Source of the DNA: [Eubacterium] eligens ATCC 27750
GTDB lineage: Bacteria > Bacillota > Clostridia > Lachnospirales > Lachnospiraceae
Reading direction: 5' to 3'
Assembly: GCF_000146185.1 (NCBI RefSeq)
Contig: NC_012778.1
Location: forward strand, 1,433,001-1,497,000
Length of the DNA stretch: 64,000 bases
In this document: positions 34,413 through 41,014 of the stretch, piece after piece
Numbering within the stretch: the first letter of the stretch is position 1
Layout of the letters: each line of letters begins with the position of its first letter
Notes under the pieces: model-generated
What the model was told of the DNA's origin: nothing
What the model saw: the letters and a program-made list of their open reading frames with translations, nothing else
Database searches by the model: none
Program-made: the position numbers and the translations under genes

Positions 34413-34471
34413 TAGAAATTATTAAAGGTTATTCAACACGCCCATAAGGCTTGCAAGATTAACATCTACAA
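34413..34471 (-). CRISPR. Decayed CRISPR repeat, spacer-sized gap and truncated repeat
   Basis: TAGAAATTATTAAAGG at 34413 and on to 34437 is a degenerate copy of the array repeat (same orientation, one substitution and one deletion over about 25 nt). A 26-nt gap (34438-34463), the size of the true spacers, leads to ATCTACAA at 34464-34471, the first bases of another repeat, where cas12a-like sequence begins. I read it as the old leader-distal part of the array. Confidence 0.65.
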
Positions 34472-34679
34472 TAGTAACCTGAAATTATATACTCTGATGG
34501 TTTAAATGTTTTTATGCCTTTTTTGAAAAGAATACCTTAGGCAGCATTTTATTAGGTCCAGGAAGCAGATTGCATACCATTTTCTTATAATCAGCATCAC
34601 TCTTTCTATCCCCACTGCCCTAAATTATCTTTTTATCAGGCTTACTTTTTGCGTTAAAAACTGCAAGAAAATACTTGTC
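34472..34679 (-). pseudogene. Fragment of a second, divergent cas12a
   Basis: About 208 bp that, on the minus strand, encodes a piece of Cas12a homologous to residues around 560-630 of the intact gene: DDKYFLAVFNAKSKPDKKII, then a TAG stop, DYKKMVCNLLPGPNKMLPKV, then a frameshift and GIKTFKPSEYIISG. About three quarters of residues match the intact Cas12a. It lies exactly between the truncated repeat at 34464 and the last array repeat at 34680; the right junction falls on ATCT, shared by the repeat and by cas12a (Arg-Asp codons). It is non-functional and comes from a different cas12a allele. Confidence 0.88.
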
Positions 34680-35217
34680 ATCTACAAAGTAGAAATTATT
34701 TAAGATTATTCAAACTTATCTGTGCTAGGAAATGCCATATCCATCTACAAAGTAGAAATTATTTAAGGTTATTCAAACATGGCAGAAGATACGGCCAGAG
34801 CAATATCTACAAAGTAGAAATTATTTAAGGCTATTCAAACTAACACATATTGTATTGATCATGGAAATCTACAAAGTAGAAATTATTTAAGGTTATTCAA
34901 ACAAATTATAAAGTAACAACACAAGTAAAATCTACAAAGTAGAAATTATTTAAGGTTATTCAAACATAAACCAATGAGAAAATTACTTGGATATATCTAC
35001 AAAGTAGAAATTATTTAAGGTTATTCAAACCTGTAGCAAGGGCAGTAACCAATTACTATCTACAAAGTAGAAATTATTTAAGGTTATTCAAACACAACTA
35101 TTATATAATTATCGGGTGATCTACAAAGTAGAAATTATTTAAGGTTATTCAAACTGAGCCAGTACCAGACACTAAGTATCAATCTACAAAGTAGAAATTA
35201 TTTAAGGTTATTCAAAC
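34680..35217 (-). CRISPR. Type V-A CRISPR array, 9 repeats, 8 spacers
   Basis: 36-nt repeats start at 34680, 34743, 34805, 34867, 34930, 34995, 35058, 35119 and 35182. In the cas12a direction each starts GTTTGAATAACC and ends in the Cas12a handle TTTCTACTTTGTAGAT. Spacers are 27, 26, 26, 27, 29, 27, 25 and 27 nt (from low to high coordinate). The repeat at 34680 has one change (AAGATTATT) and that at 34805 one (AAGGCTATT), both toward the leader-distal end, so the leader is at the 35218 side and the array is read on the minus strand like cas12a. I know of no matches for the spacers. Confidence 0.98.
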
Positions 35218-35340
35218 TCTTAATTCGTCAAATTAAACAAATTATTAAGCATATAACCTTAAAAAACAATTTATTTGTGTATTTTTTCATATTTTATTGA
35301 ATAACCTTTAAATAATAATTTATCAAAGCCCATGTTTGCA
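35218..35340 (-). promoter_or_regulatory. Array leader with inverted repeat-like segment
   Basis: 123 bp of A/T-rich sequence between the cas2 remnant and the first repeat. On the plus strand, 35297-35317 reads TTGAATAACCTTTAAATAAT, matching the 5' part of the repeat with one inserted T but in the opposite orientation to the array. In a transcript it would be an anti-repeat able to pair with the repeats' 5' halves. No clear promoter is visible. Confidence 0.55.
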
Positions 35341-35568
35341 TTATGTAATAATAATAAAATCTTTTTCATCATTTTTTGCATATCCAAACCTTAGTACTTC
35401 ACAACTTGAAGATAATTTAAAGATCATAACACTGTCTTCCTGACTAAATCTCTTCTCATACTTATTCTTCAAATCACTGATTATATTATCTAATATTCTA
35501 GTGCTATTGTCAATTTCAAAAACCGAATACTGTATCCTGTGACCGAATTTAGACAAATATTTTGCAAA
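35341..35568 (-). pseudogene. cas2: cas2, 3' remnant
   Basis: Encodes the C-terminal about 75 residues of Cas2 (FAKYLSKFGHRIQYSVFEI, then DSVMIFKLS). The first beta strand with the conserved Asp (normally VxYDI) is missing. The reading frame runs directly out of the cas1 remnant in another frame, and any TTG start (35556) would make an inactive stub. It is the last of the collapsed cas4-cas1-cas2 block and ends 123 bp before the array. Confidence 0.85.
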
Positions 35569-35824
35569 AATTGTTCTTAAATTTTAAGCACCATCTATTA
35601 TTAATAACTTCGAAATCATTTTCTTTACATTGTCCAAGATTTATTGATTTTCTTACCTGATAATCAACAACCGGTCTTATTGGTTCCATCAAGTCACAAA
35701 CCAATGATTTTCTCATGTAAAAGCATTTATGAAATACCCCGTAATATGTGTCAAATCCATAAACCTGCAATATGGCATCCACAATATTAAACAGCATGGT
35801 ATGTAAGATTGTCCTGACTTCCAT
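35549..35824 (-). pseudogene. cas1: cas1, 3' remnant
   Basis: Encodes the C-terminal half-domain of Cas1, with YGFDTYYGVFHKCFYMRKSL, LVCDLMEPIRPVVD and KSINLGQCKENDFE. The N-terminal domain and the first active-site Glu are lost, and the C-terminal end is cut into cas2. Cas1 of type V-A is normally about 330 residues; fewer than 95 remain. Integration activity is not possible. Confidence 0.88.
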
Positions 35825-35900
35825 ATAACTTATGAAAATATATAGAAGCCGGACAAAATATAAAATCATTTAAGTTAGAAATAATTATGATATCATCCAT
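35787..35900 (-). pseudogene. cas4: cas4, 5' remnant
   Basis: Thirty-seven codons starting at an ATG that overlaps the cas12a stop (TAATG). The first about 28 residues, with ISNLNDFIFCPASIYFHKLY, match the start of Cas4, including the first cluster Cys (FCP), then the frame runs out-of-frame into cas1 sequence and stops. Too short for the usual ORF cut-off. The one-base overlap with cas12a shows the original operon order cas12a-cas4-cas1-cas2. Confidence 0.85.
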
Positions 35901-38900
35901 TATTCATACCTTTTATTCTGTATAAAATCCAACCATTCAGCATGAGGTAATTTCAGGCAGTTCCTGTCAAAACCATCTTCTGTCCACTCAGACTTTATCT
36001 TTAACACCTCATATAATCCCTTAAGCGCTATACAATATGCACCATTTGCATCTGCATCTTTTGGCATCTTGCATTCTTTATCATCTGATTCTTTATAATT
36101 ATCTGAGTCAAAAAATTCTCCTTCATCATTGATTACAGGTGATATTATTTTATCGTAACTTATTCCATTCTCCTGTTCCTCGGCTTCAGTATAACTGTTT
36201 CTCATCTGAACTGTAAGTTTATATAAAGATAACAGTTGTGCAAAGAATTCAGACTTTTTATCTTCATCCATCTTCTCCATATCTATCCTTATATCATGTC
36301 CATCAGCATAATTAATTTCATTATCTTCTAATAATAATTTTATTGTTTCTGTAAGATTTATTGATTTTGTTTTGCCTGTTCTCCTTGCATTGTTGAATTC
36401 ACTCTGCAGTCTCTCACCATTGGTATATACTGTCCATTGTGTCTTACCCATGGTAATGTTGTAGGTATCAAAATTATTATAATCAAATCCGAAACTGAAC
36501 ATGTCTTTTTCGGCACAATATCTTATTTCATCAAATTGCATAAAGAACTGTTTTCTTGAAGCATTTGTTGAAATGCTCTTAAAATTAAATGCACTGATAA
36601 ATCCGGTTGACGGATCTATTTTTGATGTAAATGCAGCAGGTACATAAAATATTACTCCACATTGTTTCCCAAGATTTTTTATATTATCTGGTACATATGT
36701 CAATTGATATCCTTTTAACAGTCCCCCTGGTTCATCTACAGATTTTTCTTTAGAAGCAAAATAATTCAGCTTATTAATAAGCATACTCTCGAACTTCTGG
36801 TATACCTGTCGTTCAACTTTAAAACGACCTCGCTTAAATCCATAATTCAAATCTTCCATAGCAATTATTGCATTATACTCAACTATAAGCATTGCTATCT
36901 CATGAACTACCCCCGAAATATATCCTTCTTTCAACTCTTTAATATTTCCTATAGATTTCCAGTTCTTTCTCGCATATTCTCTGGTCTTTTCCTTCTCAAC
37001 CAGCTTCTTCTTATAATCATAATTATTCAATATATTATAACTTTTCTGTTTAACTATATTTCCATGAGAATCTATAACAGAAATATATATAAGATTACGC
37101 TCACCCCTGTCAATTCCAATAACATGTATATCATCATTTTGTGCTATATATTTTACAACCATATCATTTACATTATTTCGTGCTGTCACTTTATAGTTAA
37201 TAGTAATTGGCGTATGTATAAAATATTTATCAACTGTATATCTGTAATCTTTAACAATATCCTTTTGGGCAGTCCTGACCTCTACTTTATCAAGATATTC
37301 CTTTGCAGCTTCTGACAAGTCACTTTCTTTAATATATCCATTATACATTTTATAAATTTCATTATATATATCATCTGGAATCGGTATTCTTACAACATCA
37401 CCATTATCAAGCTGATTTTTATATGTCTTATTAACTAATACAGAATCTTTTTTATGCTTAACTGGATTTTTTACGCTTGCCCTTCTGTAAAACAATTCAG
37501 CCTGTCCATTTAATTTAATAATGATATCCTTAAGATTTTCTTCACTAAAAATGTTCTTGAAATACATAGTGTGAAGATTTTCTTTTCCTGTACTGTTCTC
37601 TGCGAAGTCCTTATTATAAATCTGAAATAAATATATCTTGCCTTCCTCATCAAGCTTATTAATATCAGCTTCACTTATATAAGTCCAGTCAATTCTATAC
37701 CCCTGCATTTCAACTTCACGGTAGAATTCACTTATATCGCTATAACTATCAGTTGCAGAGAATTTAAATTCATATTTTCTCCATTCCGCATGTTTCTCTA
37801 TGCTGTTCTTAAAATAATCAATTAAATCCCTACAAAAACTGATATCAAAATTCTCACTTGTCTTAATATGTTTGTGTGCATTATAACCGGAAATTATATA
37901 ATCAGATGGCTTAAATGTTTCTATTCCTTTCTTTGATAAGAACACTTTAGGAAGCATTTTATTCGCCCCCGGCAACAGATTATATACCATCTTCTTATAA
38001 TCATTATCGTTCTTTTTATCAGAATTTCCCTGTATAATCTTTTTATCGGGTTTATTTTTAGCATTAAAAATTGCCAGATAATACTTATTATCTCTTATTA
38101 AAATTATTGCATTATTATCAAACTCTTTACTCTGCGACCAACCATTAGCAAGTGTAGGACTTTGAAAATTAAGTTTTATTTTCTTAGAATTGTATGGTTT
38201 CTGTGTAACATAATTTCTCACCCTGTTATATAATGGCACTATATTTTCTAATATATTATAGATATCGTCTATATCTGAATAAAACATTTCATCTCTATCC
38301 AGTACTTCATCAACAATAAATGCCTTTGCCCAATGATACATGTTCATATACATATCAAGCCTTTTCTTCATTTCATCAGCTTTTTCTTCGCTCTCAATCA
38401 GACTTATATGATCATCGTATTCCAAATGTGCTGTTTCTGTATCAGTTATTATATTACTAATTTCCCTTATATATTGCTTAGCATTAGAATTTTTAAATTC
38501 ATTTCGTTCTTTTTCATCTATATATTTCTCAACTAAATCATTAACATCATTAATACTCTTATATTTATCTTCTTTTACAGCTTTTTTAACTTTTTCTTCT
38601 TTAGACTTACCTTTTGCATGTATATTTTCATCATAAAAATTTTCAACGCAACCTGTAATTAAATTCCAGTTACCACTCATAAAACATGATAATGTCTCAT
38701 AAAAATCTTTTGATATATATATTCTTTTCTCATCTAATTCATCATATTTATTAACGATATCTTTCAGTTTTCCAATTATATTGCCTTTTTCTGTTTCATC
38801 AATAAACGCATTAACAGCATTATATACGCTCATATCATCTTCAAACATTTTAGGTACTTCAAATGAAGTTGATGTATACGCAAGGATTTGCTTATGCAGC

Positions 38901-39748
38901 TTACGCATTTTGAATAAATTGTAATTATTCTTTGTCTGCTGGCAATAAAGATTCATATGTGCATTAACCACACCACATATTTCATTGTAAAAGTCTATTC
39001 CTGACTGAATTAATACCATGTTATAAAAATCCGGATTAAATATCTGATTCAATTCCCAATCACCCATTTTATCCTGATTATTTTTTTCAATTACTTCTAT
39101 TTCATCCAATGCCTTTTCTGAGATTTTCTTATATGATGTCATATTAGCAAGAAAAATCAAAGAATTTTCATGCACAATTCTATAAGCTATAGATGTAGAA
39201 ACAGCCTCTTTAGTAAATACATTTTTTCTCTTTTCAAAAAAATCCGTAAAATATGTGCTAAAACCATTAAACAATGCTAATGTTTCCAGTTTGCCAGCTT
39301 TGTCTTTAACATCATATTGATTATAATTTTTAATAAAATCTGGCAGTATCTCTTTCAAAAGCTTTGCGTTAAATATATTTTTGTAATTAGAATCTGATTG
39401 CAGATGTGTGCATATCTGTTCTCTCATTTTGCTCTGCTCTTTTTCTAATGCTTTCTTATTATCTTTTGATGGACTTGACTGAACCAAATTCATTAATTCA
39501 AAAAGCAGAGTAAAATCTAGATCAGTTACACCTGATAATGATTTATCTATATATTCTCTATAATAATCATCCATTATATTTTTTAACTCTGTGCTTTTCT
39601 CTTGTCTTAACTCATCTTCCTGGATAAGTCCATTCTGTATTATATGCTCCTGTGTATGCCCAACAGGTCTTAATTCATTCCTTAGTGTCTTTGCTACTGG
39701 TATAACCCCCACAAACTCTCTGTAAACTATGCTACGATTTCCATTCAT
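35900..39748 (-). CDS. cas12a: Cas12a (Cpf1), type V-A effector nuclease
   Basis: A 1282-residue RNA-guided DNA nuclease that also processes its own pre-crRNA. I recognise it as the E. eligens Cas12a. The RuvC active site is complete: Asp880 in GIDRGERNLIY, Glu965 in AIIAMEDLNYGF and the Asp pair at 1231/1233 in PKDADANGAY. Other Cas12a landmarks are KTLRNELRPVG near the N-terminus, NYVTQKPYNSKKIKLNF, LLPGANKMLPKVF and KIDPSTGF. ATG 39748 follows AAAGGAGGATA; a more distal in-frame start would swallow that RBS. It stands downstream of a small RNA gene that may repress it and upstream of the collapsed adaptation genes. Confidence 0.98.
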   Translation of the reverse strand: MNGNRSIVYREFVGVIPVAKTLRNELRPVGHTQEHIIQNGLIQEDELRQEKSTELKNIMDDYYREYIDKSLSGVTDLDFTLLFELMNLVQSSPSKDNKKALEKEQSKMREQICTHLQSDSNYKNIFNAKLLKEILPDFIKNYNQYDVKDKAGKLETLALFNGFSTYFTDFFEKRKNVFTKEAVSTSIAYRIVHENSLIFLANMTSYKKISEKALDEIEVIEKNNQDKMGDWELNQIFNPDFYNMVLIQSGIDFYNEICGVVNAHMNLYCQQTKNNYNLFKMRKLHKQILAYTSTSFEVPKMFEDDMSVYNAVNAFIDETEKGNIIGKLKDIVNKYDELDEKRIYISKDFYETLSCFMSGNWNLITGCVENFYDENIHAKGKSKEEKVKKAVKEDKYKSINDVNDLVEKYIDEKERNEFKNSNAKQYIREISNIITDTETAHLEYDDHISLIESEEKADEMKKRLDMYMNMYHWAKAFIVDEVLDRDEMFYSDIDDIYNILENIVPLYNRVRNYVTQKPYNSKKIKLNFQSPTLANGWSQSKEFDNNAIILIRDNKYYLAIFNAKNKPDKKIIQGNSDKKNDNDYKKMVYNLLPGANKMLPKVFLSKKGIETFKPSDYIISGYNAHKHIKTSENFDISFCRDLIDYFKNSIEKHAEWRKYEFKFSATDSYSDISEFYREVEMQGYRIDWTYISEADINKLDEEGKIYLFQIYNKDFAENSTGKENLHTMYFKNIFSEENLKDIIIKLNGQAELFYRRASVKNPVKHKKDSVLVNKTYKNQLDNGDVVRIPIPDDIYNEIYKMYNGYIKESDLSEAAKEYLDKVEVRTAQKDIVKDYRYTVDKYFIHTPITINYKVTARNNVNDMVVKYIAQNDDIHVIGIDRGERNLIYISVIDSHGNIVKQKSYNILNNYDYKKKLVEKEKTREYARKNWKSIGNIKELKEGYISGVVHEIAMLIVEYNAIIAMEDLNYGFKRGRFKVERQVYQKFESMLINKLNYFASKEKSVDEPGGLLKGYQLTYVPDNIKNLGKQCGVIFYVPAAFTSKIDPSTGFISAFNFKSISTNASRKQFFMQFDEIRYCAEKDMFSFGFDYNNFDTYNITMGKTQWTVYTNGERLQSEFNNARRTGKTKSINLTETIKLLLEDNEINYADGHDIRIDMEKMDEDKKSEFFAQLLSLYKLTVQMRNSYTEAEEQENGISYDKIISPVINDEGEFFDSDNYKESDDKECKMPKDADANGAYCIALKGLYEVLKIKSEWTEDGFDRNCLKLPHAEWLDFIQNKRYE

Positions 39749-39777
39749 ATAAATATCCTCCTTTACTATGTTCAATT

Positions 39778-39790
39778 TTTATAAAGTGAT
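39778..39790 (+). promoter_or_regulatory. PAM plus 9-nt seed target of the creR-like guide in the cas12a leader
   Basis: TTTA (39778-39781), the canonical Cas12a PAM, is followed by TAAAGTGAT (39782-39790), identical to the first 9 nt of the guide of the small RNA just upstream. From position 10 on the match is at chance level. The site lies about 30 bp before the cas12a ATG, within the probable 5' leader, so a bound Cas12a would block the gene without cutting. Confidence 0.8.
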
Positions 39791-39804
39791 GTAATATATA
39801 CTCG

Positions 39805-39810
39805 ATTATA
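39805..39810 (-). promoter_or_regulatory. Possible -10 of cas12a
   Basis: TATAAT on the minus strand directly after the terminator of the small RNA. No good -35 is visible at 16-18 bp, so the promoter may be weak or the assignment wrong; TATATT at 39793-39798 is an alternative. Confidence 0.4.
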
Positions 39811-39813
39811 TTT

Positions 39814-39880
39814 AAAAAAATAACGCTTCCTATGCGTTACCTTTTAACAAATCACTTTAATCTACCTAAAAGTAGAAATT
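39814..39880 (-). ncRNA. creR-like Cas12a guide RNA (putative autorepressor)
   Basis: A compact RNA gene, about 67 nt, minus strand. Its 5' end is a Cas12a handle (AATTTCTAC, loop, GGTAGAT; 39880-39860) with the same UCUAC/GUAGA stem as the array repeat but a longer loop and none of the repeat's 5' half. A 20-nt guide TAAAGTGATTTGTTAAAAGG (39859-39840) follows, then a perfect 6-bp terminator stem TAACGC/GCGTTA (39839-39834, 39826-39821) and seven T. A consensus promoter would start it at 39880. The guide's first 9 nt match a TTTA-flanked site upstream of cas12a. CreR RNAs that repress type I and V-A cas genes by such limited pairing are known; function here is inferred. Confidence 0.85.
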
Positions 39881-39886
39881 AATTTT

Positions 39887-39915
39887 ATTATATTAACTTC
39901 TTATATATCCGTCAA
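39887..39915 (-). promoter_or_regulatory. Promoter of the creR-like RNA
   Basis: Minus strand: -35 TTGACG (39910-39915), 17-bp spacer, -10 TATAAT (39887-39892), discriminator AAAATT. Start expected at 39880, the first base of the handle, so the RNA needs no 5' processing. Confidence 0.9.
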
Positions 39916-39947
39916 TATTATTCTTTAAATATATTTTATAGATTATA

Positions 39948-39976
39948 TTGACATATTCTCTCTGTATTGTTATTAT
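39948..39976 (+). promoter_or_regulatory. Promoter of the Rpn-type nuclease gene
   Basis: -35 TTGACA (39948-39953), 17-bp spacer, -10 TATTAT (39971-39976), divergent from the creR-like promoter 33 bp away. Confidence 0.85.
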
Positions 39977-40048
39977 ATATTACACATTGGTGCATCATTT
40001 TATATTTTAACTATATCTCACATATGAAACATTTAAGAAAGGCGACAT

Positions 40049-41014
40049 ATGAATAATAGCAACCGCACTACTCACCAGAAAGATGTCTCCCTTAAGACTT
40101 TCTGGCGTGATAATGAACATTTTGCAGATCTTTTCAATGCTACTGTCTTTAATGGTAAACAGGTGCTTAAACCTGACAAACTTACAGAAATGGACACTGA
40201 TGTCTCTGCTACAATTCATTCCAAAAGTTACAATGAATCTATTACCAGAAACAGAGATGTAGTAAAGAAGATGTCTGATGGCGTTGAGTTCAATATTCTT
40301 GGTCTTGAGATTCAAGACAAGACCCATTATGCCATGCCTCTAAGAACTATGACTTATGATGCACTCGGCTACATAAAAGAATATAATGATATCAAAAAAC
40401 ATCATAAGCTGAATAAAGATTCTTTCAGTTCTCATGAAGAATTTCTTTCTGGAATTAACAAGTCTGACCGTTTCCACCCTATAATAACGCTCGTTCTTTA
40501 CTATGGTGAGTCGTTATGGGATGGTCCTACCTGCCTGTCTGACATGATGATTTCCATGCCTGATAATATCAAGGCTTACTTCTCCGACTATAAGTTAAAT
40601 CTGGTTCAGATACTTGATTCTGATAAATATACATTTTATAATGAAGATGTAAGAGATGTGTTTAATATTATAAGGAACATATATAATGATGATTTCGATT
40701 CAATATATCGTGAATATGAATCCCGCAATGTAGATATTGATGTAATGGAACTGATATGTAACATAACCTCAGTTCCAAAGCTTATGGACTTATGTACAGA
40801 TACTGAACAAGGAGGGACTGTCAATATGTGTGAAGCAATGAAACGATTTCAGGCTGAATGTGAAAGCAAAGGTATGAAAGAAGGTATCGATTCCGAAAAA
40901 GTCAACTCTATCATCTCCATGCTAGAATTCGGCATAACCAAAGAACAGATATTAACCAGGTACACTAAAGAGGATTTAGAAAGAGCAGAAGCTGCTATCG
41001 CTAATGAGAACTAA
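40049..41014 (+). CDS. Rpn family recombination-promoting nuclease / putative transposase
   Basis: A 321-residue PD-(D/E)XK-type nuclease of the Rpn/YhgA-like family. The N-terminal half shows FADLFNATVFNGKQVL and FNILGLEIQDKTHYAMPLR, where ExQ is the nuclease motif, then TYDALGYIKEYNDI and the block ITLVLYYGESLWDGP. The C-terminal part is helical and charged, ending with the frequent tail GITKEQILTRYTKEDLERA. Rpn proteins promote RecA-independent recombination and some act in phage defence. It is divergent from the creR-cas12a unit and the only plus-strand gene in this part. A shared terminator follows. Confidence 0.85.
   Translation: MNNSNRTTHQKDVSLKTFWRDNEHFADLFNATVFNGKQVLKPDKLTEMDTDVSATIHSKSYNESITRNRDVVKKMSDGVEFNILGLEIQDKTHYAMPLRTMTYDALGYIKEYNDIKKHHKLNKDSFSSHEEFLSGINKSDRFHPIITLVLYYGESLWDGPTCLSDMMISMPDNIKAYFSDYKLNLVQILDSDKYTFYNEDVRDVFNIIRNIYNDDFDSIYREYESRNVDIDVMELICNITSVPKLMDLCTDTEQGGTVNMCEAMKRFQAECESKGMKEGIDSEKVNSIISMLEFGITKEQILTRYTKEDLERAEAAIANEN

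Follow-up and report, generated by a model that had tools for sequence, protein, structure and literature searches.

A candidate creR-like guide RNA gene upstream of cas12a in [Eubacterium] eligens that would direct Cas12a to its own leader

Background

CreR is reportedly the name given by Liu et al. (2023, Cell Host Microbe, doi 10.1016/j.chom.2023.08.005) to a cas-regulating RNA. According to the text available from a review, CreRs have been described for type I-B, I-E and V-A systems (PMC13131331), which bears out what a preliminary description of the DNA analysed here had stated, and they are described as autorepressing V-A systems through a partial match to the promoter (PMC13131331, PMC12737573). 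As far as these excerpts go, the unit reported here resembles a CreR in that it is a crRNA-like RNA predicted beside a cas gene, shows limited, PAM-flanked complementarity to a cas control region and belongs to a V-A effector. It differs in that its one handle comes with a dedicated promoter and terminator, whereas one review, in the portion consulted, words CreR as encoded by a mini-CRISPR (PMC12948488). The mini-CRISPR feature is absent from the window (the whole 64,000-nt stretch of DNA that was analysed), which has a single handle, and two repeats are present in the sister species (locus L028); the contrast with a mini-array drawn in the preliminary description thus holds for the window and fails for the sister species. 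By the mini-CRISPR wording, the unit is therefore a CreR-like variant and not a CreR. In the literature covered, to which the primary CreR paper (Liu et al. 2023) does not belong, no description of a solitary single-handle V-A form was found.

The study cited for tracr-L is reportedly that of Workman et al. (2021). In the accessible text of two other sources, this type II-A RNA matches its own cas promoter over 11 nt beside a PAM and represses it without cutting (PMC8616872, PMC11417352). Judged from the same text, tracr-L is, like the window unit, a natural single-guide-like RNA aimed at the control region of its own cas gene; however, it consists of an extended tracrRNA working with Cas9 and its function has been demonstrated, whereas the window unit goes with Cas12a, would give a handle-first RNA and is known from sequence. 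Identity with tracr-L is ruled out, because the neighbouring effector is Cas12a and the handle is of the Cas12a type.

CreA of the CreTA module, according to the part of the source consulted, represses a toxin RNA through the multi-subunit effector Cascade (PMC9458426), and it is likewise an ectopic, partly degenerate repeat that guides an effector to a promoter by a partial match. A CreTA antitoxin is not supported here, since the genome's sole PAM-plus-9 match falls in the cas12a leader and not at a toxin gene. The Racrs, some of them V-A, share with the window unit a solitary repeat behind a promoter, but in the available text they are mobile-element-encoded inhibitors of immunity that are not cas-associated, whereas the window unit adjoins cas12a (PMC10651486).

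Results and Discussion

Anatomy of the guide RNA gene and its target

The features of the locus are as follows.
39915-39814, minus strand: guide RNA gene, whole unit of 102 bp (promoter, handle, guide, hairpin and T7), read directly
39887..39915, minus strand: predicted promoter TTGACG-17-TATAAT (-35 at 39915-39910, -10 at 39892-39887)
39860..39880, minus strand: Cas12a crRNA handle AATTTCTACTTTTAGGTAGAT, a motif common to the array repeats, which folds
39840..39859, minus strand: 20-nt guide TAAAGTGATTTGTTAAAAGG, of which bases 1-9 are the seed
39859-39851, minus strand: guide seed TAAAGTGAT, the first 9 nt, which matches the cas12a leader
39814..39839, minus strand: terminator-like hairpin TAACGC-ATAGGAA-GCGTTA plus T7, called by folding and recurring in L028, L014 and L017
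39778-39790, plus strand: target, consisting of the PAM TTTA (39778-39781) and the protospacer seed TAAAGTGAT (39782-39790), read directly
39757..39764, minus strand: Shine-Dalgarno-like AAAGGAGG of cas12a, read directly
35900..39748, minus strand: cas12a, frame intact, 1282 aa, start codon ATG at 39748
34672..35221, minus strand: CRISPR array of the same system, 9 repeats and 8 spacers of 25-29 nt

The promoter, handle, 20-nt guide, hairpin and T7 were all found at 39915-39814 as the preliminary description had claimed. The predicted promoter matches 11 of 12 consensus bases and is one of four promoter-like sites in a scan of 39700-40050, for which shuffles average 3.5; TTGACG-17-TATAAT also precedes the two-repeat version of the sister species. 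The first base of the handle (39880) lies 7 nt past the -10 and is the expected transcript start. The handle motif occurs 10 times in the genome, namely in the 9 array repeats and in the guide RNA gene, against 0 occurrences of the reversed control, and its loop reads TTTTAG in the guide RNA gene and TTT in the array. As in a CreR, the handle is thus derived from the repeat of the cognate effector. Of the 18 bases that precede the handle in the repeat, 6 agree with the array repeat, so the handle has been kept and the 5' half of the repeat lost.

The stem TAACGC/GCGTTA lies in 39839-39821 and encloses a 7-nt loop, and the T7 run follows at 39820-39814. Taken alone, this stretch folds at -6.7 kcal/mol (z -3.9), and 1 of 200 shuffles folds as well. 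An automatic terminator scan of 39700-40050 lists none at this hairpin, and the terminator-like call rests on the folding and on the recurrence in relatives. A search of 39600-40060 against Rfam gave nothing up to E 1.

The 9-nt guide match behind TTTA at 39782-39790, also described previously, was verified; it ends at position 10, where T in the guide faces G in the target. The site is located 30-42 nt upstream of the cas12a ATG (39748). The PAM plus 9-mer occurs once in the 64-kb window, where 0.04 would be expected from shuffles, and this 13-mer occurs once in the 2,831,389-base genome, in which the reversed control pattern is found 3 times. Limited PAM-flanked complementarity to the cognate cas control region, a feature of CreR, is therefore present in the window, and it is present in relatives too. 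The scan of 39700-40050 lists no cas12a promoter over the target. The only candidate in the window, TAGGAA-16-TATAAT (9/12), is upstream of the target and does not overlap it, so that the target would sit just past the transcription start. The guide pairs with the coding strand of cas12a.

The Cas12a of the window is complete by Pfam, with REC1, REC2, PI-like, RuvC and NUC domains, and has the DNase motifs IDRGER, MEDLN and DADANGAY. In an alignment, a His and two Lys coincide with the H, K and K of FnCas12a that we take to be its RNA-processing residues. Given these domains, motifs and residues, the enzyme should load the guide RNA and should not cut at nine matches.

Guide and leader change together in close relatives

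Among 22 genomes of the genus, Cas12a was found in one other species (G018, carrying locus L028), with 59% identity. Upstream of cas12a this species has two repeats, the second of which carries the guide TGAAGAATTTTTGTTAAAAG followed by the hairpin TAACGCATTTATGCGTTA and T7, and its cas12a leader contains TTTA-TGAAGAATT, matching its own guide seed. Four of the nine seed positions differ between the window and L028, in guide and site alike, although the 3' part (TTGTTAAAAG, stem and T7) is kept. The same correspondence was observed in L014, from another genus of the same family group (Cas12a 53%), with the seed TAAAGTTAT and the site TTTA-TAAAGTTAT, and in L045 from Lachnospiraceae bacterium GAM79 (Cas12a 50%), with the seed TAAAGCTGT and the site TTTG-TAAAGCTGT. 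The hairpin stem of L014 has T-A where the window has C-G, both sides being changed. Hairpin-plus-T ends were folded in four loci (window, L028, L014 and L017), and the guide RNA unit recurs at the same place beside cas12a in relatives. The window, L028, L014 and L045 form one group with a support of 100 in a FastTree phylogeny of 90 Cas12a proteins. Covariation of guide and leader among these four sequences lends support to the earlier proposal of a creR-like RNA.

Solitary handles and array units in a survey of Cas12a loci

Cas12a loci were taken from 397 family, 392 order and 398 phylum genomes, from two genus searches and from a genome_contigs scan; the latter kept 80 of 316 confirmed relatives, and the counts below are not a prevalence estimate. 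Removal of five duplicates (L003, L113, L015, L018 and L055, of L028, L104, L043, L083 and L041, respectively) gave 90 distinct loci, 88 of them with a usable leader (>=130 nt); L096 and L102, being without upstream sequence, were left out. For every exact-handle unit, the score was the longest exact guide match behind TTTV in its own cas12a leader, from -300 to +20 on both strands with its own guide masked. Units at most 200 nt apart were regarded as one array, and bridging 300 nt gives an identical result.

An exact TTTV-flanked seed of 7-15 nt in the own cas12a leader was found for 9 of 12 solitary handles, the lengths being 7, 8, 9 (five times), 11 and 15. The 812 array units, from 49 loci, include a single one that scored 7 or more, and no other exceeds 6. 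With a looser grouping (110 nt bridged), the values are 10/14 for solitary handles and 0/810 for array units. The difference between 9/12 and 1/812 is what would be expected of a dedicated regulatory RNA, and at the level of sequence it argues for such a role. The one array unit, with 12 nt, is the last unit of the array in L056. An earlier control of 832 array units had two high scorers of 12 and 9 nt, in L056 and L067; the former sits behind one degenerate repeat, and the latter is truly separate, 488 nt away.

As for the remaining solitary handles, that of L048 has 4 nt exact and 10 nt if one rG-dT wobble is allowed; that of L068 scores 1 in the leader and has 8 nt at -951, a promoter-like place before the gene preceding cas12a; and that of L038 has no match in its own leader. 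The two-unit loci gave 9 nt in the second unit of L028 and 0 in L057, whose upstream sequence is only 175 nt. A unit at the contig edge in L087 scores 1. Most of the Cas12a loci examined have no creR-like unit, and the genera of G062 (2 genomes) and G208 (26 genomes) yielded one further Cas12a locus, L110, likewise without one. Allowing degenerate handles (<=2 mismatches) gave 1469 candidates with 10 leader matches, none of them new; shuffled leaders gave 0.5 per run. No Cas12a was found in viral contigs (7 pattern matches, 0 confirmed).

Some of these loci have features of their own. The array-end guide of L056 lies at +6680 from cas12a, and its leader match is TTTA-flanked, so this may be a creR at an array end. 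The 15-nt seed belongs to L017, at -194 from cas12a; it is close to what Cas12a might cut, and its PAM directly adjoins the -35 of a strong promoter-like site. The solitary handle of L068 is at -1018 from cas12a, and the gene of about 210 codons that follows its target is perhaps the head of an operon.

Specificity of the pairing

Thirteen loci were considered candidates, i.e. those of the nine scoring solitary handles plus L048, L068, L028 and L056. A guide-by-leader matrix was computed for ten of the 13, L056, L067 and L068 not being included. The diagonal values are 9, 9, 9, 9, 15, 8, 4, 11, 7 and 9 (mean 9), and the own leader gives the top score in all ten rows, while the 90 off-diagonal cells have a mean of 2.6 and a maximum of 6. 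None of 100000 permutations reached the diagonal sum. For nine guides, leaders generated by a Markov model came up to the own score in no more than 3 of 2000 trials (0 to 3); for L048 they did so in 92 of 2000.

Of the 128 positions past the first mismatch, 37 are identical between guide and site, compared with 39.9 expected from composition. Since a fading duplication would leave an excess, identity at chance level indicates that matching breaks off at the end of the seed and does not fade. The 18 bases upstream in the repeat agree with the commonest repeat of the array at 3 to 10 positions in nine of ten comparable loci, and at 13 in L028. As the 5' half of the repeat is degraded and the handle kept, the part retained is the part that Cas12a needs.

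Phylogenetic spread and position of the target

From the titles or group codes of their records, the 13 candidates are assigned to Bacillota, Actinomycetota, Bacteroidota, Campylobacterota and Lentisphaerota, mostly as metagenome bins, so single assignments may err. On the Cas12a tree the candidate label requires at least 9 changes (shuffled mean 12.4; 1 of 500 shuffles as low), so that either several origins or many losses must be assumed.

Of the 12 plus-strand candidates, 5 (L001, L017, L052, L048 and L099) have an exact TATAAT no more than 24 nt upstream of the handle. In 8 of the 13 loci (L028, L045, L017, L048, L052, L056, L067 and L068), a promoter-like site (at least 9/12) either overlaps the target or has its start no more than 20 nt away, a count that has no shuffle control. 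No promoter-like site of this kind was found in L014, L089 or L099, and the sites of L066 do not touch the target. Judged from these positions, promoter occlusion would be the natural mechanism for many of the relatives. For the window, an early block to transcription and read-through that starts at the creR promoter are both conceivable.

Proposed autorepression of Cas12a

The anatomy of the unit, the genome-unique site, the seed-limited match and the pairing kept across divergent relatives together make it very probable that the window unit is a monocistronic creR-like gene, which would steer Cas12a to its own leader without cutting and thereby lower the expression of Cas12a. We infer the transcription of this gene, the loading of its RNA, repression and release to proceed as follows. 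The transcript would begin with the first base of the handle or a neighbouring one and end at its own hairpin and U-run; with such a start and terminator, a second repeat and 5' processing would be unneeded. Cas12a would load this transcript as a guide, and seed bases 1-9 would pair beside the TTTA PAM in the cas12a leader, 30-42 nt before the start codon. Because the match ends at 9 nt, Cas12a would sit over its own start region, probably briefly, and leave it uncut. Such occupancy would lower cas12a transcription. Array crRNAs occupying Cas12a, or an inhibitor disabling it, would free the site, and more Cas12a would be made.

The strength of the binding and the orientation of the guide are the weak points of this proposal. 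The preliminary description had taken binding as the expected result of a match too short for cutting, a step which is not automatic: in the text available, AsCas12a is stated to bind stably only with about 17 matched nt and to leave easily below that (PMC6050341). A 9-nt match may give weak occupancy. The natural seeds below 17 nt suggest either that this family of enzymes behaves differently or that a promoter can be controlled by brief visits if they are frequent. Furthermore, dead Cas12a placed at a promoter can repress whichever strand the guide addresses, but it blocks elongation well only with a template-strand guide, according to the portion of the source consulted (PMC5460296). Pairing with the coding strand, as in the window, is therefore the weaker orientation for an elongation block, which counts against the proposal. 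So do the position of the only promoter candidate in the window, upstream of the target, the failure of L038 and L057 to match, the mere 4 exact nt of L048 and the lack of a creR-like unit at most of the Cas12a loci examined.

A wider reading was also considered, which we regard as rather unlikely. In it, cas12a mRNA could come largely from read-through of the creR promoter, each message beginning with a Cas12a handle, so that Cas12a would bind and trim its own message in cis and block the leader DNA in trans; pairs of guide and leader would have originated repeatedly across V-A loci from several phyla, every pair having its own co-evolving seed of 7-15 nt. It is the lack of a convincing separate cas12a promoter between the creR terminator and the start codon that points to such read-through.

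Less probable still is that the RNA is really bound by Cas12a and exerts its main effect off the DNA, by stabilising Cas12a or competing with array crRNAs, binding through 9 bp being too weak. The 17-nt need of AsCas12a, as given in the available text (PMC6050341), would fit this, yet it leaves unexplained both why a PAM-flanked seed tracks the leader of each relative and why there is a single match in the genome.

We consider it quite improbable that the unit is a remnant of a dead array or mini-array without present function, with an accidental 9-nt match. The locus has decayed in part, since the adaptation genes are reduced to Cas1 and Cas2 pieces, and the degenerate repeat and cas12a fragment beyond the array indicate rearrangement; the two-repeat version of the sister species would also suit a remnant. 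However, an accident does not account for exact PAM-flanked seeds in nine of twelve solitary handles as opposed to one of 812 array units, nor for seeds that differ among relatives and still match their own leaders, and a remnant would not retain pairing while the rest of the repeat decays.

An ordinary immune crRNA against a phage or plasmid deserves very little credence: a handle and a 20-nt guide are present, but the 3' half of the guide runs into the conserved hairpin instead of being a free spacer, and it is kept between species with differing seeds. That the unit is an RNA anti-CRISPR, a solitary repeat from a phage or plasmid tying up Cas12a, is scarcely credible, for although a Racr likewise consists of a solitary repeat preceded by a promoter, and the Moraxella V-A system was inhibited by three V-A Racrs, the source, as far as consulted, describes them without cas gene association (PMC10651486), whereas the window unit keeps its place next to cas12a in relatives and carries a guide fitting the host leader; the exact 26-base handle-plus-seed, searched as an exact pattern only, has no match in viral_contigs.

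If the creR-like reading is right, self-regulation of Cas12a becomes testable from sequence, since a solitary handle together with a PAM-flanked leader seed would predict self-repressed loci, and the seed pairs of relatives offer ready-made swaps between species. The natural seeds of 7-15 nt, set against the 17-nt requirement stated for AsCas12a in the text consulted (PMC6050341), sharpen the biochemical question. Should the pairs repress, it would follow that a promoter can be silenced by brief binding, a point of relevance to off-target silencing by Cas12a tools. With one handle and its own terminator, the unit resembles an engineered single-guide cassette, made by nature.

Neighbouring DNA

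Decayed adaptation genes lie on the minus strand between cas12a and the array (35344-35869), comprising a C-terminal part of Cas1 (E 9.5e-16) and a Cas2 piece (E 4.6e-10); the Cas2 frame of the sister species looks complete. A 37-aa piece directly past cas12a is Cas4-like by eye and has no Pfam match. Adjoining the last array repeat is a cas12a fragment (34509-34685, minus strand), 71% identical to residues 553-611 and with two stops, after which a degenerate repeat follows at 34413-34436; the arrangement looks like the result of recombination with a second copy of cas12a. On the other side of the guide RNA gene, a divergent gene (40049-41014, plus strand) has a weak Transposase_31/YhgA-like match, at 19.9 bits below the cut-off of 21, and its own promoter-like site TTGACA-17-TATTAT at 39948-39976.
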